From NCBI GenBank assembly GCA_902728285.1, contig CACVBU010000050.1:1894060-1958059 (forward strand): 64,000 nucleotides of DNA. Direction: 5' to 3'. Shown here one piece after another: positions 6,746-61,540 of the stretch; position 1 is the stretch's first letter; each line of letters starts with the position of its first letter. The notes beneath the pieces were generated by a model. It was not told the origin of the DNA. It saw only the letters and a program-made list of their open reading frames with translations, and ran no database searches. The translations under genes and the position numbers were made by a program. This DNA comes from Clytia hemisphaerica. Taxonomy: Eukaryota > Cnidaria > Hydrozoa > Leptothecata > Clytiidae.

Positions 6746-9700
6746 TCAGATGACCATGGATTCGATTGTTGAAAAGAGTTCTTCATTTTCAAGAATATCT
6801 AGATGACCTACATCCGGTAACTCATGAATGGTCACATTCTCTTTCTGCAAGTCTGCAAACATTTCACATAAAACTAAAGATTCCAAATTGACCGAACCAT
6901 CTCCATGCCCATATTCAAACCCGATCGGATGATCGGGAAATCCGGATTTGTCAAAAATTAACCGGTTAACAGTAGAGTTAAGTTTGTTACCATAGAAACA
7001 TGATATTGGAACACCAGGTGACATTTTCATAAGTTCAGTATTATTGACTATTTGCTCCATCATTAGCGTTCCTTCGTGAAAGCCAACTTGGTCTAGATAT
7101 CCACTAATATTTGATATGATGAATGTTTTGTTACTGATTTGTGCAAACACGTAATCGTCACTCCAGGCAAACCGACTTGGCAATAAAACTAAATTACTTG
7201 TAAAAGATCTTTGACCAGCGCGTACGTCTAAAGGTTCGATCACTCGTTCTAATTTCTTATCCACGAAGCCGGATGCATAGACGAGCGTCTCCAAAATACT
7301 ACCACCGAACGGGGCTGGAAACAAAAGGAAATTATTAAGAATTTATGTTAGTAAGCACAGACTTTCTACCCTCAAGAGCCGAAGTTAAGTGCCAGCTTTT
7401 TTATAATAAAGCTCTTTTATCATATATTTAATTATCATAGCTTCACAGCTACGGTAGCAAAGACACCTCTTTCCCAGCAACATTCAACTATTGAGCAATT
7501 TTTTAGTTATTACTGATAGAACAAAGGAGCTACCGCTGTTTACGGTCTCAGTATCTTATCTTAAGCGACTGTTGATAGCTTAAAAGTTTATTTCAAATTC
7601 TCATAGATTCAATGATCTTTCCATTTGTGAAAAGAATTCAGTGTGTTTATTTCTAATGGGAATCCAGTTCCAAAACACTCATTCTTGCATATTTCCTGTG
7701 GCTGAGAAAAAGAACAAATATAAATTTTCGAAGATACCTATGTTTGTTTTAGGTACATTTAAAGAAATGGCTAATTACCTGCTAAAGCAATCCACTGTTT
7801 GATGAATTTCTTTTTCCATGATTTCGATACTTTATTGAGGAAATATAACGTCATCAATCCACCATAGCTGTGAGTGATTAGGGTTACCGCTTCGTTGTTG
7901 TTAAGAACGTATGTTTCTTCGATCAAATCTTTCAGCTCATTGAAATAATTGTGTGGTGTCGTATCTGGTGTAAAGAATTTATTTATTTGAAAACAAAATA
8001 GTGGTTTCCCTTGACAAATCTTTTGATAAATCTCATAAAAATAAGTGAAGAAAAGTTTTCGAAAAATTACTTCCCAAAACGAGTTAAAGAGCTTTGTGAA
8101 TAATTTTTCTCCTCACGATAAATTCAAAGTTCTAGGGACAAAATGATTAGATTATCTCCACCGTTACTACTAGAAATAAAAAAAGTTTTCTTACAACGAA
8201 ACACAAAACAGCCAGATTCTACCTCAAATCGTTACTTAGAATAAGTGAAAGTTTTCTTAAAACAAGACACGAAATGACCAGATTCTACCTCAAACCGTTA
8301 CTTAGAATAAGTGAAAGTTTTCTTAAAACAAGACACAAAATGACCAGATTCTACCTCAAATCGTTACTTAGAATAAGTGAAAGTTTTCTTAAAACAAGAC
8401 ACGAAATGACCAGATTCTACCTCAAATCGTTACTTAGAATAAGTGAAAGTTTTCTTAAAACGAGACACGAAATGACCAGATTCTACCTCAAACCGTTACT
8501 TAGAATAAGTGAAAGTTTTCTTAAAAGAAGACACAAAATGACCAGATTCTACCTCAAATCGTTACTTAGAATAAGTGAAAGTTTTCTTAAAACAAGACAC
8601 GAAATGACCAGATTCTACTCAAATCGCTACTTAGAATAAGTGAAAGTTTTCTTAAAAGAAGACACGAAATGACCAGATTCTACCTCAAACCGTTACTTAG
8701 AATAAGTGAAAGTTTTCTTAAAACAAGACACGAAATGACCAGATTCTACCTCAAATCGTTACTTAGAATAATTGAAAGTTTTCTTAAAACAAGACACGAA
8801 ATGACCAGATTCTACCTCAAATCGTTACTTAGAATAAGTGAAAGTTTTCTTACAACAAGACACCAAATGACCAGATTCTACCTCAAATCGTTACTTAGAA
8901 TAAGTGAAAATAAGTGAAAGTTTTCTTAAAACAAGACACAAAATGACCAGATTCTACCTCAAATCGTTACTTAGAATAAGTGAAAGTTTTCTTTCAACAA
9001 GACACCAAATGACCAGATTCTACCTCAAATCGTTACTTAGAATAAGTGAAAGTTTTCTTAAAAGACGACACGAAATGACCAGATTCTACCTCAAACCGTT
9101 ACTTAGAATAAGTGAAAGTTTTCTTAAAACAAGACACGAAATGACCAGATTCTACCTCAAACCGTTACTTAGAATAAGTGAAAGTTTTCTTAAAACAAGA
9201 CACGAAATGACAAGATTCTACCTCAAATCGTTACTTAGAATAATTAAAAACTTTCTTAAAACAAGACACAAAATGACCAGATTCTACCTCAAACCGTTAC
9301 TTAGAATAAGTGAAAGTTTTTTTTAAAACAAGACACGAATTGACCAGATTCTACCTCAAATCGTTACTTAGAATAATTAAAAACTTTCTTAAAACAAGCC
9401 ACAAATTGACCAGATTCTACCTCAAATCGTTACTTAGAATAAGTGAAAGTTTTCTTAAAACAAGACACGAAATGACCAGATTCTACCTCAAATCGTTACT
9501 TAGAATAAGTGAAAGTTTTCTTAAAACAAGACACGAAATGACCAGATTCTACCTCAAATCGTTACTTAGAATAAGTGAAAGTTTTCTTACAACAAGACAC
9601 CAAATGACCAGATTCTACCTCAAATCGTTACTTAGAATAAGTGAAAATAAGTGAAAGTTTTCTTAAAACAAGACACAAAATGACCAGATTCTACCTCAAA

Positions 9701-12321
9701 TCGTTACTTAGAATAAGTGAAAGTTTTCTTTCAACAAGACACCAAATGACCAGATTCTACCTCAAATCGTTACTTAGAATAAGTGAAAGTTTTCTTAAAA
9801 CAAGACACAAAATAACCAGATTCTACCTCAAACCGTTACTTAGAATAAGTGAAAGTTTTTTTAAAACAAGACACGAATTGACCAGATTCTACCTCAAATC
9901 GTTACTTAGAATAAGTGAAGTTTTCTTAAAACAAGACACAAAATAACCAGATTCTACCTGAAATCGTTACTTAGAATAAGTGAAAGTTTTCTTAAAACAA
10001 GACACGAAATGACCAGATTCTACCTCAAATCGTTACTTAGAATAAGTGAAAGTTCTCTTACAACAAGACAAGAAATGACCAGATTCTACCTCAAACCGTT
10101 ACTTAGAATAAGTGAAAGTTTTCTTAAAACAAGACACGAAATGACCAGATTCTACCTCAAATCGTTACTTAGAATAAGTGAAAGTTTTCTTACAACAAGA
10201 CACCAAATGACCAGATTCTACCTCAAATCGTTACTTAGAATAAGTGAAAATAAGTGAAAGTTTTCTTAAAACAAGACACAAAATGACTAGATTCTACCTC
10301 AAATCGTTACTTAGAATAAGTGAAAGTTTTCTTACAACAAGACACCAAATGACCAGATTCTACCTCAAATCGTTACTTAGAATAATTAAAAACTTTCTTA
10401 AAACAAGACACAAAATGACCAGATTCTACCTCAAATTCGTTACTTAGAGTAAGTGAAAGTTTTCTTACAACAAGACACCAAATGACCAGATTCGGCCTCA
10501 AATCGTTACTTAGAATAAGTGAAAGTTTTCTTAAAACAAGACACAAAATGACCAGATTCTACCTCAAATCGTTACTTAGAATAAGTGAAAGTTTTCTTAA
10601 AACAAGACACGAAATGACAAGATTCTACCTCAAATCGTTACTTAGAATAATTAAAAACTTTCTTAAAACAAGACACAAAATGACCATATTCTACCTCAAA
10701 CCGTTACTTAGAATAAGTGAAAGTTTTCTTAAAACAAGACACGAATTGACCAGATTCTACCTCAAATCGTTACTTAGAATAATTAAAAACTTTCTTAAAA
10801 CAAGCCACAAATTGACCAGATTCTACCTCAAAACGTTACTTAGAATAAGTGAAAGTTTTCTTAAAACAAGACACGAAATGACCAGATTCTACCTCAAAAT
10901 GTTACTTTAAACAAGTAGAAATTTGATGATAAGAAATTCACGCTCCAAAGAAGTATAAATTTTCTAAAATAAGAAATAAGAAATCGAGAACAACAAATGA
11001 ATTTCAAATCACCTGGAGAGTACCTAAAGTCATATGGGGCTGCTCTTATTTCTTTGTTTCGCTCGTAGCCCATGGTAACAAAATATTCGACCAGTGATTT
11101 CATGTAAGGAATCACACCAACACTATCGAGGTACTCAACGCTCTCTGTCCGCCCAAACTCAGGAACTTTAGTTTCGACTCCTTGAACATCGCTTGTCGTC
11201 ATCTTCTCCAAATCCCATTCCAACCTTCAAATAAGAATGTAAAATTTCTTTTGGTGATAATTCAATATACCCTTGTACCACAGACCATGGTAGAACCCCC
11301 TTTCCCACTGTCAAAATAGCTCGAGAAATTATCCTATGAAATGTTTTCCACATCGCAACTCACTAAGCTCACTGTCATTCCCAATTGGAAGTTACTGTAA
11401 AATTTGAGAATCCTACTTGATATCTGAGCTGTAAACAAAAAATCATATCCAAGCGATTTCTAATCCCCATTGGTATTTAGTTATTCCGTGTTATCCTTGC
11501 TGGACAATAATTTCTCATCGGGTCACTGGGACAAGGGTTGTTTGAATATTTAAGGGTTGTCTACTATTTACTCGTCACCATTGCTAGTTTATCAGTTTTT
11601 TTGTATGTTTCTTGAATTCATAGCGTTAAAAAATATTTTTTTTGTTAAACTGATTTATAAAAGCCCACTGGGGGTTTGTGATGGTGTAGCAAAAAGAAGC
11701 TCATTTAACGATTCAAAATTTTACGAGTGTGTACAGATAAAATTGAACAAGTGAAATCTTTCTCTGGTTGGGTATTGTTTTGTTGAATATCTGATAATAC
11801 CTGATATTATCAGCCCAGCATTTTGTGAAGCCAGGGAAGGGTGCCGTCAAATCAAACCATAGAGTATAGAAAGTGATTGTGGATGATAGACAATACCAGG
11901 CTGGTTTCCATTTCTTGCCTGTTAATTTTGCTTCCAGACGGTTTCCACCTGTTCCTGGGACTAAAATTAAAAAAATTAGTAAATCATTATCACGCAATTT
12001 AACCACTCTGGTATAAAGTTTGAATTCCAATGCTGGTAGTCTAGCATACTGATTTCCAACTATTTTTTTGGATGGTTATTCATGACGTTGTGTTTTCTAC
12101 GGAAAGACCCCATTTTTTGTTGGCGAAAACTGGTTGTTTCCGTAAAAATACATTACGTCATGAATATCATGAATTGAAAAAAATTATCTACAAGATAAAA
12201 GAGAAGACATTTTACTCAAAGAAGACTTACTCAGTATAATGGGAGACTTTGCAATCGACACATCAACTACAATGACCAACACAATGAAGAATGTTGGAAA
12301 TGAATTCGAAATCCATTGCAT
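6746..12321 (-). CDS. PLA2G15: Lysosomal phospholipase A2 / LCAT-like acyltransferase (5 exons, complete)
   Basis: This is a group XV phospholipase A2-like enzyme (LCAT family), which hydrolyses or transfers acyl chains of phospholipids in lysosomes. Exons on the minus strand in transcript order are 12321-12231, 11960-11801, 11224-11013, 7964-7779 and 7314-6746, giving 405 aa (human 412) with consistent phases. It opens with a hydrophobic signal peptide (MQWISNSFPTFFIVLVIVV). This is followed by PIILIPGTGGNRLEAKL, the Cys pair of the lid loop (WYCLSS ... FTKCWADNIR), APYDFRYSP, the nucleophile elbow THSYGG (Ser187), APFGG, the acid in GDGSVN (Asp355) and the base in VGHLD (His387). Several N-glycosylation sequons fit a lysosomal or secreted protein. 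The third intron (7965-11012) is dominated by a 66-bp satellite array. The start is the only ATG leading into a signal peptide. Orthology to PLA2G15 rather than LCAT itself is my judgement from overall similarity. Confidence 0.93.
8136..10910. repeat. 66-bp minisatellite array, about 41 copies, in a phospholipase intron
   Basis: The tandem unit of 66 bases starts ATGACCAGATTCTACCTCAA and ends in GACACGAA. Copies differ mainly at a few positions (AAATCG/AAACCG, GAAATG/CAAATG/AAAATG, AAGTGAAAG/AATTAAAAA). Because 66 is a multiple of three, the plus strand reads as an open 22-residue repeat (MTRFYLKSLLRISES...). This is interrupted only where copies carry an 11-base insertion or a base change. 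The first copy (about 8136-8215) is strongly diverged, which suggests the array grew from unique intron sequence. It ends about 100 bases from the exon at 11013-11224. It lies antisense in an intron, so coding is unlikely. Confidence 0.95.
12076..12167. repeat. Small inverted repeat in first phospholipase intron
   Basis: TTATTCATGACGTTGTGTTT at 12076 onward pairs with AAATACATTACGTCATGAAT ending near 12166. Both arms continue into TTTCTACGGAAA/TTTCCGTAAAAA. The total is about 92 bp with a short loop, probably a tiny MITE. Confidence 0.55.
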
Positions 12322-13361: not shown

Positions 13362-13653
13362 ACACCCCTGCATCACAGACCTACTGGGACCAAACCCCCA
13401 CTGGAAAATTTGACAAAAATTTCACCTGCCTGGTGGGAAAATACCCTGGAATTTTCAGCCCCACTGGGAAATTGACTTTGATTCCATCCCCATTCGAAAT
13501 AACAGTAAATGTTGAAAAAAATGAACTCAAAAACCATCCCCATAGGATTTTTTAATCTTAGAACAATAGAATTTCTATCCCCATTGGGATTTCTATAGAC
13601 ATTTTTATCCCCACTGAGGAAAAAATTCCACCAGGGCTATGAGACAGGGGTGT
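13362..13653. mobile_element. Inverted-repeat element with ACACCCCTG ends and 6-bp direct repeats
   Basis: The element begins ACACCCCTG (13362) and ends CAGGGGTGT (13653), exact inverted repeats. It is flanked on both sides by ATTTGA (13356-13361 and 13654-13659), a likely target duplication. The interior contains degenerate CCCCACTGGGAAAT-like words about every 40-60 bases. A relative with G-rich orientation lies at 46763-47129. Confidence 0.7.
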
Positions 13654-13754
13654 ATTTGAGGCTTACTATTAGGATTAATCAAATAGGTATTGTGCATTCT
13701 TTTAGGTCTATATTCAATTTTCAATAACAATATTTTATGGTATAAAATAAAACT

Positions 13755-13860
13755 CGAATCCAGTCCCTTAGTTCGTTGTTTTATGGTTCTGATAGCGCTC
13801 TCGATTGTAGTTAGTAAGATCAAAAGTGGTGCATGTGGTTCTGGATACGAGTTTGATATA
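13755..13860. repeat. Dispersed copy of the repeat amplified at 61.2 kb
   Basis: CTCGAATCCAGTCCCTTAGT, followed by GTTCGTTGTTTTATGGTTCT and GATAGCGCTCTCGATTGTA, is nearly identical to 61150-61208. Similarity then decays through AGATCAAAAGTGGTGCATGT. This is a single unit here but a tandem 117-bp array near 61.2 kb. Its origin is not recognised. Confidence 0.8.
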
Positions 13861-15092
13861 AATTTATATTCGAAGCTTTTTAGCATACTTAGATATTCTA
13901 GAATAATTATATTACTGTCTAATATTTTATTTTATAAAAGGATGAGAAGAGGAAGATTTGGTTGAAGCCAAACCGTGTATAATGTTTGAAATATCAATTG
14001 GAAAACGAGTTCAAATATCTTATCGGTTGTCATTATAATAATTATATTATCTTAAATAAATTGGAAAACGAAATTGGAAAACGAAATTAGAAACTCAGCT
14101 TCACTAATATCACAGAGATCCCTCCTTAAACACAAATATTGTCGGTTCCCACTAGAGTGTGGAAAATTAAAAATATCGGCTTTTGCTTTTGGAAATCCTT
14201 CAGAAAAAATATAAGTCAAAAAGTAGAAAGAATTAAAAAAATATGCTAGAAAAAGTAGTGCTCAAATATAAAAAAAGCAGAATTCATAATATTAAAGTTC
14301 CTTGAAAATATCAATATGAAATCGAATTTAGAGTTTGAAAGATTTGCAAACAAACATATTTGACAGCTGAAATTTGTTTATAACAAAAATTGGATTACGT
14401 AAGTTTCTTTGATCTTTAGACTATGGGACTCTGTCCAATACAGTGCGAATCAGCTTATTAAAATATTAATCCTTATCTAATGATATACAGTAACATAAAT
14501 TTTTTGTGCAATAATTTTATAGTTAATAAATAATTCTAATACGTTTAATTTAAAATGTTTATTGAAAGAAATTTAGAATCATATTTACAGTGAAGAAATT
14601 TTAATAATAATGCACTTTTCCAAAAAAAGATACGCACTGCGCTAGAAAAACCTAGAAAAATCCAGGAGAGTCAATTAGATTTTTTTTAATTCAGGGAGTC
14701 TCTGTAAAATTCGACAAAAAATCCAAAGTGTCTAGAAAATCCAGGATGGTCTTTAAAATATCGGAAGTCGGGGTTTAATCTTTTTCTGGAATAGCTGATT
14801 CTTATAAATAGTAAGTCAAAGTCGGTTTTAATCCAACACAATAAACGAATGCTAATTTTGGAGATTATTCGAATCGGTGCTTTCTTAGGTGAATGACTAT
14901 TAAATCTACTTAATAAAAATGTTTTGTTTGTTTGACGCAAGAATTTCAATCTACGCTGGTTTTGAGTTAAAGTGATAAAGACGTTATTTTCGAAAAATCT
15001 AATAATACTCATTAAATGATTCCAAAGGCTTCCAATATGATTGGATAGGTATTAAAAAATTAACATATAAATTAGCAATTACAAAATTATAA

Positions 15093-18000
15093 TCATTCCC
15101 AAACAATTTCTTTACTAGACGCCAGAACCATAGCAAATGCTGCCTTCTTATCTGAAACTTGAATATAAGTTTTATTTTTCTTTTGCATGAAGCTCAACGA
15201 TTTTATGGTGAGTGAAACAGGTCCTTTTTTGCCGACAATTCCTTCGTTGAGTGTCAACGAACCCGAAGATATATTTCCCGACAACTTTTTACCGAGAATC
15301 AACGATGCACCAATGGCGAGTTTATTTCCACTGGCGTTTTCATCGATGCCGACTATTTTTCCCGTGGCTGATCGTCTTAGCTCTAATGAGAATATCAGAT
15401 GATCGGTGGCGTCTCCCTGAATATTCCACGACTTGATGCATCCATTTGTTGGTAAGATGCGCTCGAAAATAGCAACCCACTCCTCTGTATACGGTGTATG
15501 CGACGCTACATCAGCTAACGCTTTCTTTCGACATTCGTTAGATCTTTGAAGACGCATTTCCTTGGTTTCCTTAACAAATGGAGGCGGTGGTTCGTTCGAA
15601 TCTTGAGGATCTTTTGGTAAGATGTCTTTATCTATGGACGGCTGGGCAAGCTGTAGATCGAGGGCGGACGGGCGGTCAAAATCACCCGTAAGGTTAGAGT
15701 TCAAGACACGTAAACACTGTAAAAGGCTGGTCCAATTTGCATTCCAAGCTGAGTTTAACCATAGATCACGTTGAAGGAAAAACGAGTATTTGTACGCTTT
15801 ATAGTCGACGTATTTTTCAAGTGTTACTAAAAGGTTTCTACCGTTCTTTTCTAGACGGAGGTATTCATCTCTGTCCGATTGGAATTCGTGTAAATCGTAG
15901 TATGTTTTGTTATTCTGTACTGCTTCGTATGAAGGTGGTGGTGGTAGCCCGAGATCGGTAGGTGGTAAGGGTGGTGTTAACTGGCTGTTGGTGGCAGCTT
16001 CTGGGTTGTGGTCTATCTGTAGTGGTGGAGGTTTGATTTCTGCTGAAGGAGGGTCGAAGGTGATCTTGATATCTGGAGGGCCTGATGGTTCTGCAGCTTG
16101 AGGATCAGTTGCTGGTGCTGGTTGGTCGGTATTCTGCTCCTCGATAGACGAGCTAGAGTGCAATGAGATCTTGTCACCTTCTTTTTCGAAGTTATTCAAC
16201 TCGATGGAATCGTCTGAAGTTGAAGGAGGTACAAAAGGTGGTGGAGCTTGAAAGGATTGGTATTTAGATTGAATTGATGGAGTTGCTACTAGATCGGTTT
16301 TGGGAGATAGCGATTTGTCAAGTTTTTGTGCAGATCGTACGGATTTGATTAGACGGTTCCACGTTGACGATCTTTTCTCCCATCCTTTCAAAAACCATTT
16401 GTTCTTTTGTATTCTGTTCTCTAAGTTCATGATTTCTTTACGAAAAAGTTCGCGGTCTCGTTCGACGTTACTGATTTGACGTTGTTTGATTGCGACGATG
16501 AGAGAGACGATGAATACGACTACGACACCGACACACATGATGATGAGAGGTGTCTTAGAAGATGGATCATCCATCACAAATGCTACCAGGACGGCAACAA
16601 CAACCACACAACTCGATACAAAAGTACACAATCTCCAGACAAGAACACTGATAAAATTACATGGGTAGAATTTGAACATCATTTTGAAGCCAAATGTAAA
16701 CAAGATGGATAGTATGTTAAAGACAAGTAAACAGATCAGAGTGACGTAGGGCGTTTTGGTGATTATGGTGGCGGAGACAACCATACCCGCCTTCAGGATG
16801 TTGATGACAGTAGTGTAGATAGGGGAGAAGCCTATATCCTGATCGACTGTGTCTGGATCCCCGTAGGTGGTATCAAAGATCAAAGCGGTGGTGGTGTACC
16901 ATACCAGACCAAAGAGTCCGAAAGCAGCATAATCTCGGTGGGGTTCGGACCAGCATTGCATGGAGGTATCCTCGACGAAGGTTGATTGTAGACAAGTGGC
17001 GTTAGATTGGATATTACCGAGGGTGAAATTTGATGAGCAATGTTCATAATTACACGCACTAAATGATATAAAGTTCTCGACGAAAAATAAAAATAATGTG
17101 TTGGCAAGAAGCGATATGGTTAATCTCCAACTTGGTCGTTTACCGAATGTTCCTATAGGGAAATCTTCAAGAATGTTCTCGAAAATGATTGGCGCACCAC
17201 AGCTTAAGAACCAAAATACAAAAACAGAGACGGTTATCCAAAAGATCGGTTCAAACGGTAAAAATGAGAATAAAAGAATTTTCGAAGCTTCTGATAAATA
17301 GTTTGAGCCATACATTGGGATGTCTGTTAATTTGAAAATCAATGCAATCGATTGGAAGAATTCTAAACCTTCGAACACTAACACGTGCATGTTGTACCAG
17401 TTAAATCGAACGTAATCGGCATCTGGCATTTTCAACAAGAATACCTTCTTTTGATCACGAATTAGACTGATAACCATTGTTAAAAGAACGAATAACAAAA
17501 TACCAATGAAAACGCTGATGAAGATCATATTTGTCGAAGCTAGTCCGTATTCGATTATTTTCTCGGCACCGTAAAACGAGTACGCGAATGGGAAACCCAT
17601 GAATATCAGGTACAAGAATAAAGTGATTAAATATGCGATACACTTACTGCCTGTGCAAACTTTTCCAACGGTCAAAAATAGGTCGGCCGGCATGAAAAAT
17701 CCGAAAAGTAGGGCGGTAAGAAGAAAACGGGGCGTTTTCCATGACAGTAACGCCTTAATCAACAAATAAATGTCCTCTGCTATAAAACCAGGGTACTCTT
17801 TAACAACTTTCCGAACAGCAACCCAGCTACGTTTTTCGACGATGCAATCGAAGATATCAGCCAGCATAAACGGCGCCCGATACAGGAACAAAACAACGAA
17901 AATGATGCGTAGAATGGTCAGGAAATCTAACGCATATTCATAAAGAGTTTCTCGTAAAATATCAAAACGTGCATACCAACGACGAACTAATCGATAGATC

Positions 18001-20156
18001 AACTTCGGCGCACGGTAAAGTGGCAAACAACAAATTAAAACGCCAAAAATAACGGGCAGCCCACCACGTGGTAATGTTTTGATTAAAACTTTTTTTGTCT
18101 CGTCACGTGATCGAAGAGAGAAACCAGTTTTGGATTCGTATAAAGGGACATGAGGTGGAGTGTAATTTTTTAATTTCTCATAAACTCCACCTAGGTTGCG
18201 GTCATATTCAAATTTCTCGCGTTGTAGAAGAGCGAGGTTTTGTGCACGAATCTTTGTATCTGGTCGACGTAAGAAGTGATGTTCCGCTGTGTACAAACGC
18301 ACCAACTTTTGTGTACGTTGCTTTTCGTAAAAGATAACAGTCTTTACGAGAGTCACAAATTCGTCTTCAATTTCATGTTTAGAGAGCTTATCAAGAATGG
18401 TATTTACACGATCAATAAGGTCATCCATTTCATTATTCAACTTACTCAAACATTGAAATTCTTTTTCAACATTCTTAAAACTTAAACTTAAAACGTCATC
18501 TAATCGTTGGTAAACTTCATGTCGACTATTGGCGATGTCTGGAAACCACTTCATAATTTCTTTCAGTTCCCTATGTTTTTGATGTTCCTCGTCCTCTAGA
18601 ATGTTAATCCAGACTTGAATAGGTCGTAACACCATTAACACCAAGAACAAACAAATAAAGAAAACATCAATCAAGAAATGTAACGCGTGGTAATACACCG
18701 ATACTGCAAACAACATGTAGAATTTCCCGCCAAGCAAATCGGATAACAATCGGGTTGTCCGTAAAACGGTAATCAAGAGAAACAAACAAATCGGTATAGC
18801 TGGTAGATCGATGATTAATAAAGCGAAGTGCATACAGATTGTTTTTCGGATTTTGGTCATGCATTTGGACCAAGTCAAGGGTGGTTTTTTCTCAGCTTCC
18901 TCTTCTCCCTCCTTTTCGTTTTCAGAAGAAATAGGTTTCTCTTCAGAGTTGTTCGTTTCGACTGTAGATGTTGAAATTGGAGTGTTTTCTGATGGGACTA
19001 TCACTTTCACTTTCTTATCTTGGCTGTATCGTTTCAAATAACCTTTAACGTCTTTGATGATGGGGTAAGTACGCCATAACGTGAAGAATACGATCACGAA
19101 AAGTATGAAGCAGAAAAAATCGACGAAAACCATACAAAATTCTTGAAAACAGACAATACGAAGGTGCATTTCTTTCTTATAGAAAGCAGTCTTATTACGA
19201 ACGATATCAAATTGCTTTTTACATCTCCGGATAAAAGTTGGTAATCTCCACAGAGTACCAAGGATCAATATGGAGCAAATAATACAAGGAATGTCTAAAA
19301 ACAAGTACAGAAATTGTAATGTGACAATTTTCCTTATAATCATCTGTTGTTTCTTGCGATAGAAAGCTCGATCAGGGTTGCTGAGCTGCCATAACATGAT
19401 GGGGGAACGCCACGTGACTAAAGTGATGAAGAACATAACGAGACATGGTATATCCAAGAATAAATAAAAACATTGGATAATTCCAAGGAGTCGAATTTCG
19501 TCCCATTCATCGTTGTTCTTGATGGCTTTTCTCACTTGATAAACGTAAATCGGTAGTCTCCAGGAGAGGATTGCTGGAATGGTAACAATCAAAAGTGGTA
19601 TGTCTAACAACAACTGGAAGAAATGTTTGAAACAAGTTTTACGACGATCCGAATCCGATTCTGCTTTCTTCATCTCATTGATGAATAAAACACATCTCCA
19701 TGACAATAACAATATCAAAGCCAGTGGAAAACAGAAAATATCAATGCATGATTTGAAGAAATTGGTAATAACAATTTGTCGAATTTTCCATCCATAGTAT
19801 TTAAATCCACTGTCATTAACGCTCCAGTCTTTTAAATGAAGCTCTTCCTTCAGTTCTTTATAAGTTTGAGGTACACGCCATAAAGTAAACAAGATGAATA
19901 ACCCCATTATGAAGATCGGTATATCGATCAAGAAAATGAAGAATTGAACAAAGCCGATCCATCGCCAGCCCCACATGGACATTTCTTGGAAACCGGCGAT
20001 CATGTGTGGTAGCCGTACTATTGTACAACATGCTAACAGGTTGAAGATCAATCCAAGTAAATCAAGTAATCGTAGTCCAAGGAATTTTAGTAGTACCCCA
20101 AAAGACCAGAATGTCTTACGAACGATCCATGCTATACAATCAACAATCTCAGACAT
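15093..20156 (-). CDS. Uncharacterised 1687-aa polytopic membrane protein with repeated D-I-P...W-R-x-P modules
   Basis: This is a single uninterrupted frame of 1687 residues; I do not recognise the family. Residues 30-515 contain tandem units of about 50 residues, each a long hydrophobic segment with D-[IFLV]-P near its start. W-R-x-P or a variant follows 13-15 residues after the Asp: Asp78/Trp93, 139/153, 185/199, 235/249, 288/303, 346/361, 450/Leu465, 497/Leu510. Weaker units follow near 697-717 (YRAP), 744-762 (YRAP) and 795-809 (WKTP). A charged insert (380-425) and a helical soluble stretch (515-690) interrupt the series. Residues 695-1225 form a second polytopic part with a Cys-rich loop bearing sequons (about 1035-1068). 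After a short coiled coil (1230-1255) comes a Pro-rich tail with a PPSY motif (1407-1410), then a possible globular C-terminal domain (1555-1685). Start: ATG at 20156, giving a plausible first hydrophobic segment. Function is unknown; transport or membrane scaffolding are guesses. Confidence 0.85.
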   Translation of the reverse strand: MSEIVDCIAWIVRKTFWSFGVLLKFLGLRLLDLLGLIFNLLACCTIVRLPHMIAGFQEMSMWGWRWIGFVQFFIFLIDIPIFIMGLFILFTLWRVPQTYKELKEELHLKDWSVNDSGFKYYGWKIRQIVITNFFKSCIDIFCFPLALILLLSWRCVLFINEMKKAESDSDRRKTCFKHFFQLLLDIPLLIVTIPAILSWRLPIYVYQVRKAIKNNDEWDEIRLLGIIQCFYLFLDIPCLVMFFITLVTWRSPIMLWQLSNPDRAFYRKKQQMIIRKIVTLQFLYLFLDIPCIICSILILGTLWRLPTFIRRCKKQFDIVRNKTAFYKKEMHLRIVCFQEFCMVFVDFFCFILFVIVFFTLWRTYPIIKDVKGYLKRYSQDKKVKVIVPSENTPISTSTVETNNSEEKPISSENEKEGEEEAEKKPPLTWSKCMTKIRKTICMHFALLIIDLPAIPICLFLLITVLRTTRLLSDLLGGKFYMLFAVSVYYHALHFLIDVFFICLFLVLMVLRPIQVWINILEDEEHQKHRELKEIMKWFPDIANSRHEVYQRLDDVLSLSFKNVEKEFQCLSKLNNEMDDLIDRVNTILDKLSKHEIEDEFVTLVKTVIFYEKQRTQKLVRLYTAEHHFLRRPDTKIRAQNLALLQREKFEYDRNLGGVYEKLKNYTPPHVPLYESKTGFSLRSRDETKKVLIKTLPRGGLPVIFGVLICCLPLYRAPKLIYRLVRRWYARFDILRETLYEYALDFLTILRIIFVVLFLYRAPFMLADIFDCIVEKRSWVAVRKVVKEYPGFIAEDIYLLIKALLSWKTPRFLLTALLFGFFMPADLFLTVGKVCTGSKCIAYLITLFLYLIFMGFPFAYSFYGAEKIIEYGLASTNMIFISVFIGILLFVLLTMVISLIRDQKKVFLLKMPDADYVRFNWYNMHVLVFEGLEFFQSIALIFKLTDIPMYGSNYLSEASKILLFSFLPFEPIFWITVSVFVFWFLSCGAPIIFENILEDFPIGTFGKRPSWRLTISLLANTLFLFFVENFISFSACNYEHCSSNFTLGNIQSNATCLQSTFVEDTSMQCWSEPHRDYAAFGLFGLVWYTTTALIFDTTYGDPDTVDQDIGFSPIYTTVINILKAGMVVSATIITKTPYVTLICLLVFNILSILFTFGFKMMFKFYPCNFISVLVWRLCTFVSSCVVVVAVLVAFVMDDPSSKTPLIIMCVGVVVVFIVSLIVAIKQRQISNVERDRELFRKEIMNLENRIQKNKWFLKGWEKRSSTWNRLIKSVRSAQKLDKSLSPKTDLVATPSIQSKYQSFQAPPPFVPPSTSDDSIELNNFEKEGDKISLHSSSSIEEQNTDQPAPATDPQAAEPSGPPDIKITFDPPSAEIKPPPLQIDHNPEAATNSQLTPPLPPTDLGLPPPPSYEAVQNNKTYYDLHEFQSDRDEYLRLEKNGRNLLVTLEKYVDYKAYKYSFFLQRDLWLNSAWNANWTSLLQCLRVLNSNLTGDFDRPSALDLQLAQPSIDKDILPKDPQDSNEPPPPFVKETKEMRLQRSNECRKKALADVASHTPYTEEWVAIFERILPTNGCIKSWNIQGDATDHLIFSLELRRSATGKIVGIDENASGNKLAIGASLILGKKLSGNISSGSLTLNEGIVGKKGPVSLTIKSLSFMQKKNKTYIQVSDKKAAFAMVLASSKEIVWE

Positions 20157-20207
20157 GGTGGTGGTATCAAGCTAAAACGAATAAGAAATGAGCAAATTTA
20201 CTCTTAG

Positions 20208-29100: not shown

Positions 29101-32100
29101 ATGTGAGTAAAATGGGTAGAACCTTCATGTTGCTAATTGCATAATAGAAAATAATCGGTAGTTATCATTCTTAGATTTAGACTATTTTGATTTCATGTCT
29201 CAGTCTATTCTTCTTTATTTATAAAGTTTAATTTTTAGATGTAATTCTTTAAAGACTTGATTAATTAAGTAATTACATAGGAATTTTGATATACTTGGTA
29301 CAAAAAAGTAAAAGACGTAATCTGAGCTTTAGATTTTCCTAGGTCCACTTTAATCTCGTCGTTTTGTTCATATTTGCTAGTTCTTATTTGGATTTGTAAA
29401 ATATGCGTCAATTTTTCCCTTCCTAAAGGGAGCTGAAAGAGGCGAGTTCAAGCAATAAAATCAGAGTACACGAAGCATGTAGGAAAAAGATTATCGATAA
29501 GCGTAGTATCCCAGACAACTCAGACAACCGACCTGAAAACGTTTAAGATCATCGTGTTCCGCCGAGCCAGTCTTTGATTGGAAGAAAAACTGTTTTTTGT
29601 GCAACAGAAAAGCCAACCCTAAATATTCAACTGTCATAAAAGTGGAAACCCTACCTATTAAAAACCGCTTACTTGAATGTTCACGAGAGAGAGCCGTTGA
29701 CTGGGGAGCGAAGGTGCATGGTCGTTTAAACTCTTGCATTGACCTAGTTGCAGAGGAAGCTGTATACCACATCGTATGCATGAATTGTTTCCGACTGATC
29801 AAATCCAACGGCGACAATAACGACACATTTTCAGGTAGAAAACCCGATGCAATCCAAACTGAAAATTTCAAAAAGGTATACCAATGGCTTGACGAAGGTG
29901 ACGGAGAGCTGTACACTTTTATTGAAATTTATGATAAGATGGTCGAGTTGAGTAAAGGAACTGACTGCTACCATAGAAATTATTTGAAAACGATTAACTA
30001 ATGCAAAACTATAAAGATCATATATAATTCATTCAAAGTGAAGGGCGAAGCGATATAATTGGTTTTAAACACATGAGCAAATTTTTCATGGAAGAGTTCA
30101 TGAAAATAAAAGAACGAAGACCGGTTGACATGATAATAGCTGCTGCAAAAATCATCAAAAGTGACATTAGAGAAATGCCATTAGATAAGACTTTTTATCC
30201 TTCTTTGATTGAAATGAAGAACTTAGATTATCAAGCAGACTGGGTACCTGAGAGTTTGCAGATATTTCTCGAACAAGTATTCACTTCAAAGCTCAAACAA
30301 ATCAGCATCGGCCAGACAATCACACTCGCATCAAGACCGAGGTCATCAATTGCTCCGATACCTTTTGGAATAGGCGTAGATCTTGACAAATCTTTCGCAA
30401 CTAGATGGTTTATTGATCATTTAGCGAAATTTGGATTTTCCGTATCCTCTGCAGAAGTTAAATTGTTCAAAGAATCTGCTATTGCATCCATATCATCAGA
30501 GACAAATCCGTTAACCAACCAAACGACAGCCGATACAAATCCGTTAACAAACCAAACGACAGCCGAGACAAATCCGTTAACCAACCAAGCGACAGCCGAG
30601 ACAAATCCGTTAATCAACCAAACGACAGCCGAGACAAATTCGTTAACCAACCAAACGACAGCCGAGACAAATCTGTTAACCAACCAAACGACAGTCAACC
30701 AAGCAACATCCGAAACGAACTCGTTACTCAATGAACTTACAACAAACCAAGTTAATGAGAAACCCATTTTGGAACAATTTTCGGCAGATAACGCTGATCA
30801 CAACATTCGTACACTCAAGCTGGAAATGGAACCTTCCATGGTATGGGAATAATAAAGATTTCTACGAAAAAGCCCACCAAAGTACGAGCCATTAGACGAC
30901 TAAAGCATCGCAGTCAAAGCAATCTTTCAGATTCCTCAATACCAATAGTGGAGTTTTATGGATCAAGCTTCAATGGTCTAAAAGACTGAAACAATATCAG
31001 CTGCAGAAATGACTCTTGATTTTCTTTGGCACTCAGCATGGTTCTTTGCGTCATCTAAAAGTCCTCGTCCAAACTGGTCCGGTTTCATGATGCATGCCAC
31101 ATCACAAAGCACAACTGTATACGATGTAGCTTCCGTTGACTTTCTTCCTATCATCGATTTGAATTCTTCAAACGAAAGTTGTATCCATTCAACACTTCTT
31201 TATGTGATCGAAGAAGCAAAAAAATCTAAGATTCCAGTACCTGTTATCACATTTGATCAGCCATTATGGCAGAAGACTTTGGGTATCAACAAGCTCAAGA
31301 AACTACACATTGTTTGTCGATTAGGAGGATTTCACACCCTAATGAGTTTTCTTGGAAGTATCGGGAATCTTGTGAAGGGGTCAGGTTTAGATGAGTTGTT
31401 TGAAGAGGTTCATGCTGAGGATACCGTCAAGCATATTAATTCTGGTCATGCCGTTGCAAGAGCCATAAGGGCCCATCTTCTGGTACAAAGTGCTCTTATC
31501 AACCATATTACATGCACTTTAGTCGACGAAAACAAGTTGGTTATTGAAGATCTCGAGTCATCGTATAAGAAGGCAATGGATGAAGGCTTCACGAACGACA
31601 ATCTTGTGACACTTAGTGAATCCAAGGCCATCAGAGATATGGAGGAGAGCATTGCAACGTTTTCAAATACAATGTCGGAAAAATCGCGAACTGCAAAGCT
31701 TTGGTTATCCTACATCAATTATATCAAAGTGGTAAAAGAATTCATCGTTGCTGAGAGAAGCTGTAATTGGCCAGGGGGGGTACAGAGGCAGGGTACTAAC
31801 CCATAGGGTACTAACTTGATTTTTCACTCAATTTCTTTTTAGTACCACCCACCCATATTTAGTACCGGGTACTACTTCATTTTTGTTGTAAAAAATAGAG
31901 ACACCACCCCCTAAAATCTTATATTTTACAGATTAGACCAAAAGAGAGGGTACTATGTTAGTTTTTCTGACTGAAATGGACAGATAATTCAAATAAACTA
32001 TCATTGATTAAGTCAGAAGCTTTTGTCCTTTGATTTTAATAACACACTTCTTGACCATTTCGGAAGTTTTGTCTTCACAAAAATCAAAAAATTTCTCAAA

Positions 32101-42391: not shown

Positions 42392-43747
42392 CTACAGTTT
42401 GTCGACTTTTTTATCTACCAATGGTGACTTGGTTGGTTGATACTCAGATGGGTTGTTATTGTTGATGTTCAATTTGACAATACTACAATTACCGTCGCTG
42501 TATCGAATCGACGTTTCGTAAGCTCTCTGCGGCGTCAAATACGGAGAAGACGTGGCACGAGTGCATCCGTCATCTGTAAAAGACGTACGGTTACTGGAAG
42601 GCGTACGGTGAATCGAGAAACGGTTTAACAAGCCATGAACGTCTAATTTACTCGGGCGACGACTTGAAAAGAAATCGACAGTTTGTTCATCATTTTTACG
42701 GCAAATATAAGCGATAATTGTTTTATAAAATTCTTTGAATGTTTCACGAAAGCGTTCGTTAAACACATTGTAAATAATTGGGTTTAAACAGCTATTGACG
42801 TAGAGGAGCATGTATGAGCCCAACAAAATGTCGTTGAAATATTTAGTATGGGCACCATGGAATTCAGATACCAATCCCATCACATGGTAGGGTAGAATAC
42901 AGAAGAAGAAAGATGCAGTGATAATGACCAACAGTTTCACCACCTTTTTATTCTCAGTCTGTTTTTTTTTGTTCACTGCCAACATAGCGTCTGAGGCTTG
43001 CGTGCGAAAGGAGAGTTCGTATACGATGTAACAATAGGCTACACTCATGATGAAGAGAGGTAAAACAAACTGGAAAACGAAAATAGCCACTGTATATATA
43101 CGTTTCTGATCATCTGTCCACGTTTCCCGGCAACCGTTTGCTTCGTCATATCGTAGTATACTGATGTAAGGGATCACGAAGATAACGCTGAGGATCCAGA
43201 TCACTCCGATCATGATTTTCGCGAATCGCACGTTCGGTTGCGTTCGAAAGGGTTTCGTGATGGCCCAGTATCGCGAGAAACTTAATACGACTAACGTGAG
43301 AACACATCCGTAGATGGAGGCAGTTTGTATGGGGTAAAAGATATGACAAAAAACACTACCGTAAATCCATTTGTTCTGAATTTCGATGGGTATTTCGAGA
43401 GGAATACAAATAACGGCAACAGAAAGGTCGGCGATGGCAAGGTTAAGCAATAACCAATTAGTGAATGTTTGCATACGTCGTTTCTTGGTGATAATAAGAA
43501 CAACAATGGAATTGCCAATGAGTATAATCAACATGATTAGAATCAACATGGCCACAACAACTGGCATGGAGACGAGGTGATAGCCTCCACCACCAGCATA
43601 TTCGTCAAATTCATCTGTATTATTGCCAGAACTGTTAGCACCATAAGAGCTTCGCCAGCTCGAGAGTGAAGGATAAAAGATTTGTGATGGTGCAGAGTTA
43701 TTGAACATCAAAGACATCTTCATTTGAATGGTGGCCAACCAATTCAT
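42392..43747 (-). CDS. Class A (rhodopsin-like) G protein-coupled receptor, single exon, 451 aa
   Basis: This is a seven-transmembrane receptor, probably for a neuropeptide or other small ligand, at the plasma membrane. The extracellular N-terminus has sequons at about 16, 38 and 42. TM1 carries IGNSIVV (Asn79) and TM2 has LNLAIADL (Asp107). The conserved disulfide pair is probably Cys134-Cys206. TM3 ends SFSRYWAI (Ser158-Arg159-Tyr160), where the family norm is DRY. TM6 has FFCILPYH (CxLP, where CWxP is usual), and TM7 has SCLNPIIYNVF (NPxxY, 322-326). A long Ser/Thr-rich cytoplasmic tail (350-451) could be phosphorylated. The overall pattern resembles neuropeptide receptors of the galanin/NPY/somatostatin broad group, but the ligand cannot be named. 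Several Met codons (1, 9, 11, 14) could serve as start; the first was chosen because nothing argues against it. Confidence 0.93.
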   Translation of the reverse strand: MNWLATIQMKMSLMFNNSAPSQIFYPSLSSWRSSYGANSSGNNTDEFDEYAGGGGYHLVSMPVVVAMLILIMLIILIGNSIVVLIITKKRRMQTFTNWLLLNLAIADLSVAVICIPLEIPIEIQNKWIYGSVFCHIFYPIQTASIYGCVLTLVVLSFSRYWAITKPFRTQPNVRFAKIMIGVIWILSVIFVIPYISILRYDEANGCRETWTDDQKRIYTVAIFVFQFVLPLFIMSVAYCYIVYELSFRTQASDAMLAVNKKKQTENKKVVKLLVIITASFFFCILPYHVMGLVSEFHGAHTKYFNDILLGSYMLLYVNSCLNPIIYNVFNERFRETFKEFYKTIIAYICRKNDEQTVDFFSSRRPSKLDVHGLLNRFSIHRTPSSNRTSFTDDGCTRATSSPYLTPQRAYETSIRYSDGNCSIVKLNINNNNPSEYQPTKSPLVDKKVDKL

Positions 43748-60070: not shown

Positions 60071-61166
60071 TCTATTGTAAACTGTGCATAATAGTTTGGA
60101 AATTCAAACTTTACTGTAAAAAATGTACAGAGACGAGAAAGTAATATAAAAAAGGGTGACATATTCTTATCCTTCTTCAAAATTCTATAACCACATCTAG
60201 AAAAAATATTTAAATATTGTCACCGAAGCTTGAACTAAAGTGCTGCCTCTAGAAAACGTACTTTGACTTACATAATTCAAAACTCAACTTAAGTTCCTCG
60301 CTCAAGCTTTCCAAGCGTTCAAAGATTTTTTTTTTTTAATTTTTGTATTTTGCAGAAATGTAACTTTCTGAGTTGATTCCAAAGCAGGGGAATAAGCTAT
60401 TTCAATCCAAAAAATTAAATTTGCCCGCCACCCAAAACCAATCTCGGTCCAGTCTCCACCCCTACTGGTCCTGACAAGATTACAATTAATACCATGCTGA
60501 AAGTTAATCCACGATGGACCAACTACAAAATTAGAAATCATTTTATTGCTTCTTTTATATCAACACAGAGAATTAGGGTGTATTCACACTGAAAGTTTCA
60601 AGCTAATGGCCTTAATGTGTCTAAATCATAGAAATGTTTTGTTGATAGAAATGACGAAAGAAAAGAAAGAATTTTTAATATTTCTTGCTGATGTACGTGA
60701 AACGTTCAAGCGAAAGTAATAATTGCCTTTGCGATTCTTTGTTCCCATATTTTCAAGCAACTTTTAAGCAACAGTGAGGATACACCCTTATCCCTTGTGA
60801 GAAAATTCGACAAGTGCATACACAGTACATACAAACTAGATATCGTCGTTTAAGAACTACACTCTAATCTGTAAAAACGTAATGATAATTAGTATTATTA
60901 TTAAAGATTACAGCTTTTTGTTGTTGATATAGAGTTTTCGAATAGGTAATCAGATTCATTAGTAAATTAAATCCCCTCCTTAAGAAAGACTGACAAGAAA
61001 ATAAGCTTCATTAAAATAAGATGCCTTACTCTATATGTTAAGACAAGAAGAAAATAAAGGATTACACTTTGTTAGATATACCGCATTTTTCATATCGTCA
61101 TCAACAATTTTTATCTATATCAAACTCTACAGGGCTAACCCCGACAAACTCGAATCCAGTCCCTTT

Positions 61167-61540
61167 GTTCGTTGTTTTATGGTTCTGATAGCGCTCTCGA
61201 TTGTAACGTGTCCACAAGTAAAATCAAAAAGTGGTGCAAGTGGCTCTGGGAAAAAAGATTTGGTTTTCGGTGTAGCAAGATTTGTTCGTTGTTTTATGGT
61301 TCTGATAGCGCTCACGATTGTAACGTGTCCACAAGTAAAATCAAAAAGTGGTGCAAGTGGCTCTGGGAAAAAAGATTTGGTTTTCGGTGTAGCAAGATTT
61401 GTTCGTTGTTTTATGGTTCTGATAGCGCTCACGATTGTAACGTGTCCACAAGTAAAATCAAAAAGTGGTGCAAGTGGCTCTGGGAAAAAAGATTTGGTTT
61501 TCGGTGTAGCAAGATTTGTTCGCTGTTTTTAGCGGACAAT
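61167..61540. repeat. 117-bp tandem repeat, three full copies plus part
   Basis: GTTCGTTGTTTTATGGTTCT begins units at 61167, 61284 and 61401. A truncated, diverged unit starts at 61518. The unit is nearly identical between copies and, being 39 codons long, keeps a frame open on both strands. The first unit is preceded by CTCGAATCCAGTCCCTTT, which also precedes the single copy at 13755. No homology is recognised. Confidence 0.9.

Follow-up and report, generated by a model that had tools for sequence, protein, structure and literature searches.

The N-terminal third (residues 60-523) of a 1687-aa protein, encoded on the minus strand of the window (the whole stretch of 64,000 nucleotides analysed here, part of a 417-Mb assembly of 951 contigs), contains eight copies of a hydrophobic unit that share an Asp and a downstream Arg. 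We tentatively read the protein as a membrane scaffold, in which an N-terminal array of putative hairpins would enter the membrane from the cytosolic side and impose or sense curvature, followed by a C-terminal multipass anchor and a PPxY tail that might bind WW domains.

A repeat unit with invariant Asp and Arg residues

The initial annotation had placed the Asp residues of such units at positions 78, 139, 185, 235, 288, 346, 450 and 497, and we found an Asp at all eight positions with an Arg downstream of each. The units are encoded as follows.

19875..19964, minus strand, unit 1 (residues 65-94, Asp78)
19695..19781, minus strand, unit 2 (residues 126-154, Asp139)
19557..19643, minus strand, unit 3 (residues 172-200, Asp185)
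19407..19493, minus strand, unit 4 (residues 222-250, Asp235)
19245..19334, minus strand, unit 5 (residues 275-304, Asp288)
19071..19160, minus strand, unit 6 (residues 333-362, Asp346)
18759..18848, minus strand, unit 7 (residues 437-466, Asp450)
18624..18707, minus strand, unit 8 (residues 484-511, Asp497), marginal

Alignment of the units gave the consensus R-x5-[QHNE]-F, then a run of five hydrophobic residues, D[ILVF]P, another hydrophobic run of about 12 residues and [WL]Rx(P). Two columns, those of the Asp and of the end Arg, are invariant. The Arg follows the Asp at a distance of 14-16 residues in all eight units and is directly preceded by Trp in six of them, while Pro is found at D+2 in 5/8 and two positions after the end Arg (R+2) in 4/8. 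Upstream of the Asp, D-7 is polar in every unit (Q, N, H or E), six units have Phe at D-6, and seven have Arg at D-13, where unit 8 has Ala. D-13 and the end Arg delimit a nearly fixed span (27-29 residues in 8/8 units), and the seven inter-unit distances range from 18 to 75 residues. Consecutive Asp residues are 46-61 positions apart, but 104 between Asp346 and Asp450, where the spacing is widened by an acidic low-complexity insert.

A leave-one-out profile test showed that the repeat signature is real. For seven of the eight held-out units, none of 2000 shuffles, in which core and flanks each retained their composition, matched the real score, in a test that is partly blind because the alignment was built from all eight rows; unit 8 was marginal, its score being attained by 45 of 2000 shuffles. 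We also compared the unit profile with 177,635 distinct PDB sequences and obtained a single match at E<=10, to chain TMH4C4 (E 0.056), which we take to be a designed protein and whose match falls on its Trp-Arg end. Hence, the D...WR pattern goes beyond that of the ordinary transmembrane helices found in solved structures.

An extension of the array beyond the eight units is not supported. The weaker YRAP/WKTP units that had been proposed near residues 715, 760 and 807 were rejected, as 437, 286 and 69 of 2000 local shuffles, respectively, equalled their scores; the last figure, for residues 775-815, corresponds to 3.5% and is not convincing when six stretches are examined in this way. Local shuffles likewise attained the scores of residues 15-60 with Asp32 (501/2000), 920-960 (713/2000) and 1155-1190 (582/2000). 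The unit profile scored 1.1 bits at residues 1168-1183 and was negative in four further weak stretches.

Pairwise identity between units is 9-41%, with a mean for adjacent units (30% vs 26%) hardly above that of distant ones, suggesting that the duplications are old or that the units diverge fast. Where two units have the same residue, the third base is shared in 61 of 141 cases. A recent duplication of units is therefore unlikely.

Domains that follow the repeats

In the remaining two-thirds of the protein, the following features were distinguished.

18087..18590, minus strand, charged stretch lacking any hydrophobic segment (residues 523-690)
16488..18062, minus strand, C-terminal multipass region (residues 699-1223)
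16932..17054, minus strand, predicted lumenal/extracellular-type loop (residues 1035-1075)
15927..15938, minus strand, PPSY, a PPxY-type motif inside a Pro-rich stretch (residues 1407-1410)
15096..15926, minus strand, C-terminal part in which the hydropathy rule finds no hydrophobic segment (residues 1411-1687)

The charged stretch is probably cytosolic and helical. In the multipass region, the hydropathy rule gives 11 hydrophobic segments and manual assignment 12; most of its loops are poor in Lys and Arg and show no clear alternation. The loop at 1035-1075 contains four Cys, two N-glycosylation sequons and one Lys/Arg in 41 residues. PPxY motifs are ligands of WW domains.

Loop charges and the topology of the units

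Two arrangements of the units were weighed, hairpins that turn back at the Asp and helices that cross the membrane once each. If the units cross singly, successive loops should lie on alternating sides, and we compared the positive charge near the loop ends between the two parity sets. With the motif Arg excluded, Lys and Arg make up 16/86 and 11/65 residues over seven loops (Fisher p 0.83). Including this Arg and shortening the rim gave 16/64 and 14/64 over eight loops. As a control, a GPCR encoded in the window, whose loops we assume to be inner or outer as in its class, gave 15/62 for inner and 5/80 for outer loops (p 0.003), with 6/7 helices found by the hydropathy rule and loop ends set by hydropathy rather than by a motif. 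The parity sets resemble the inner loops of this GPCR (p 0.42 and 0.38) and differ from its outer loops at p 0.020 and 0.061, comparisons in which loop counts are small. Both sets are also more basic than the predicted lumenal loop at 1035-1075 (1/41; p 0.012 and 0.027). We preferred this single-loop control to an alternative that adds loop 1096-1111 (1/57), because the two loops flank one hydrophobic segment and may differ in side. As positive charge does not alternate, hairpins whose loops are cytosolic are moderately favoured over helices that cross once.

The segment after the end Arg adds to this picture. When averaged over the units, the hydropathy of R+1..R+16 shows its maximum at a period of 105 degrees, and its moment at 100 degrees was attained by 1/5000 residue shuffles and 157/5000 column permutations. 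Other features that agree with a hairpin are the near-fixed span, the Arg at both ends and the mid-span Asp with its frequent Pro at D+2, together with the basic loops in both parity sets. A motif with one direction in all units is expected if all of them face the membrane alike.

Some observations do not fit a hairpin as well. In seven units (all but the one with Asp235), the first arm, before the Asp, has a lower hydrophobicity than the second. It carries Lys in four units (those with Asp139, Asp185, Asp288 and Asp450), confined to its outer end in the units with Asp288 and Asp450, so that this weaker and partly Lys-bearing arm might lie at the membrane surface. For the second parity set, the difference from the outer loops of the GPCR reaches only p 0.06, and clear alternation is also lacking among the mostly Lys- and Arg-poor loops of the C-terminal region. 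In addition, each Asp is surrounded by 17-22 residues without another charged residue and without N, Q or H, which could form one ordinary transmembrane helix.

It is thus possible, if somewhat less probable, that each unit is such a helix, with neighbours alternating in direction and packed into a bundle by Asp-Arg and polar contacts, perhaps as a channel, transporter or sensor array. Besides the uncharged stretch, the invariance of the Asp and the end Arg in 8/8 units and the more hydrophobic stretch after the Asp in 7/8 are consistent with this arrangement. Asp and Arg could approach each other in antiparallel neighbours and, by helix arithmetic, D-7, the Asp and the Arg would roughly share a face of a single helix. 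However, the positive charge between units does not alternate, and a direction-dependent motif would need to function in both orientations. Two of the mechanisms offered in the initial annotation fare differently on this evidence: a charge-paired single-pass pore is disfavoured by the loop charges and a curved-membrane scaffold fits somewhat better. We prefer the scaffold by a small margin.

In the scaffold that we favour, each module would be an intramembrane helical hairpin with about 12 residues leading in, a turn at Asp-x-Pro and about 14 residues leading out, with Arg at both rims and a short amphipathic segment thereafter. All inter-unit loops would be cytosolic and the hairpins would all enter the membrane from the same side. 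Lined up in this way, the wedges would mainly occupy one leaflet and could bend the membrane or sense its bending, while the C-terminal multipass domain with its Cys-rich, glycosylatable loop would serve as an anchor and the PPxY tail, if cytosolic, may recruit WW-domain proteins. Should the hairpin reading hold, a single polypeptide would line up several leaflet wedges. This would be a novel means of generating or sensing curvature and would offer a simple setting in which to test how curvature depends on the number of hairpins. Otherwise, the protein remains a membrane protein with repeats for which neither Pfam nor NCBIfam has a named profile.

Comparison with known membrane proteins

We asked which known proteins the array resembles. 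Reticulons and REEPs bend membranes by paired transmembrane segments and an amphipathic helix, with two segment pairs, a cytosolic loop between them and hairpins thought to span the bilayer (PMC7835363). By analogy with these proteins (e.g., Yop1), we propose paired hydrophobic segments, an amphipathic helix and cytosolic loops here, in eight shorter units with a conserved Asp-x-Pro and Trp-Arg instead of two pairs. The loop charges and the helical moment agree with a reticulon/REEP-type architecture, whereas the weak, Lys-bearing first arm of some units does not. Pfam includes the reticulon and REEP families, and neither was found in Pfam scans with the whole protein, three parts of it or the eight units.

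Caveolin, oleosin and atlastin-type proteins have hydrophobic stretches of similar length that are thought to turn back inside the membrane, roughly the length of the units described here. They differ by having one or two hairpins per chain, instead of eight units, and other motifs. No Pfam match to these proteins was obtained with the whole protein, its parts or the units.

Like the protein described here, Piezo is large and has membrane repeats arrayed in its N-terminal part and a membrane domain in its C-terminal part, the latter with an outer loop (a predicted one in our protein); the Piezo blades are built from four-helix units. The profile and PDB libraries include Piezo, and we obtained no match to the Piezo profile in Pfam or to solved Piezo chains among the PDB sequences. 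Mouse Piezo1 has 2547 residues and 38 transmembrane helices and forms three blades (PMC5880808). The protein described here is shorter (1687 residues) and has eight units.

Searches for relatives

The absence of a named family for the signature, as noted previously, held in Pfam, NCBIfam and the PDB sequences. The whole protein had no named family above the curated cut-off in Pfam or NCBIfam and no match among PDB sequences, and the eight units, compared with Pfam only, had none above the cut-off. Below the cut-offs were DUF4834 (E 0.43 with the whole protein and 0.098 with residues 1-545), PRK14976 (E 0.011, 15 bits vs a cut-off of 347), SLATT_1 (E 0.33) and, in one of the eight units, Bee_toxin (E 0.48). 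The multipass region gave no match in Pfam or the PDB sequences, and the tail (residues 1400-1687) gave no family match in the same two collections and one chance-level match to a PDB sequence (E 1.1). Among the papers listed in literature searches, no title or abstract opening describes a D...WR unit.

These results bear on a further reading, namely that the units are an N-terminal accessory to a receptor or transporter family that is already established but has escaped recognition here, with the C-terminal multipass domain as its core. The Cys-rich, sequon-bearing loop and the 11-12 hydrophobic segments of the C-terminal half are what such a core would contain. A Cys-Trp...His...Ala stretch near residue 1068 may resemble uncharacterised multipass proteins of protists. 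We consider this reading unlikely, as Pfam, NCBIfam and the PDB sequences gave no family match. We are equally doubtful that the protein belongs to an undescribed class of membrane-shaping proteins, in which a solenoid-like series of eight Asp-x-Pro hairpins, rimmed by Arg on both ends and inserted from the cytosol, would be joined to a multipass anchor and to a tail that binds WW domains, much like reticulon wedges strung together in a single chain.

The sequence collections searched outside the own genome were, by their descriptions, those of viruses, plasmids, bacteria and archaea. Using tblastn, we found no match to the 1687-aa protein in phage and plasmid records, and a prokaryotic or viral origin of this gene with its intronless coding sequence was rejected. 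Peptide-pattern scans, which detect close relatives only, yielded 0, 226 and 1 stretches in viral contigs and 199 and 11 in genome contigs, none of them confirmed; the scans with 226 and 199 stretches used three of the eight units. When the full-length protein was compared with its own 417-Mb genome, its sole match at E<=1 was itself. Residues 60-373, comprising 6/8 units, found themselves and one weak match (E 0.105), and residues 1400-1687 found themselves and weak matches with E 0.159 and 5.45.

Gene structure and neighbourhood

The minus-strand reading frame at 15093..20156 runs uninterrupted from an ATG at 20156 to a TGA stop ending at 15093, while the remaining five frames of the same DNA contain 53-114 stops each. 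Its codon use correlates with that of three adjoining ORFs with a rho of 0.64, compared with 0.45 and 0.52 for the two shifted frames. The ATG has a Kozak-like context, ACCACCATG, and is preceded by one further feature.

20172..20188, minus strand, tract resembling a 3' splice site and ending in AG, as read from the sequence

This tract, TTTCTTATTCGTTTTAG, terminates 15 nt upstream of the ATG, suggesting that the 5' UTR may be spliced. The gene had been described as a single exon without introns; this stands for the coding sequence and is in doubt for the 5' UTR. It is very improbable that the frame is a non-working gene or an assembly artefact, given 1687 stop-free codons against the stops in every other frame, gene-like codon use, the splice-site-like and Kozak-like 5' context and the one full-length copy that the whole protein finds in its own genome.

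The adjoining ORFs match the ribonucleotide reductase large chain, LCAT and kinesin in Pfam. Elsewhere in the window, a rhodopsin-type GPCR of 451 aa is encoded at 42392-43747 on the minus strand, with its 7TM domain within one ORF (7tm_1, E 7.8e-55). A 66-bp repeat is present in about 41 tandem copies (91% match) at 8182-10907, and the plus-strand frames of this array are open as ISESFLKTRHEMTRFYLKSLLR repeats. It is flanked by minus-strand ORFs that resemble LCAT exons, of which 6746-7342 matches LCAT (E 1.2e-11); placing the array in an intron is a guess, because the other LCAT exons were called by eye.

Between two kinesin-matching ORFs, three successive plus-strand ORFs lie at 29537-31806, with a 33-bp repeat at 30499-30694. 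Scanning two of the three ORFs gave only sub-threshold matches, to FOXP-CC (E 0.0049) and Caudo_TAP (E 0.023), and the stretch is perhaps an inserted mobile element. Finally, a 117-bp repeat with 3.1 copies at 99% and several open frames is located at 61164-61529, and a stretch that appears related to it by eye is present at 13605-13931 on the minus strand.
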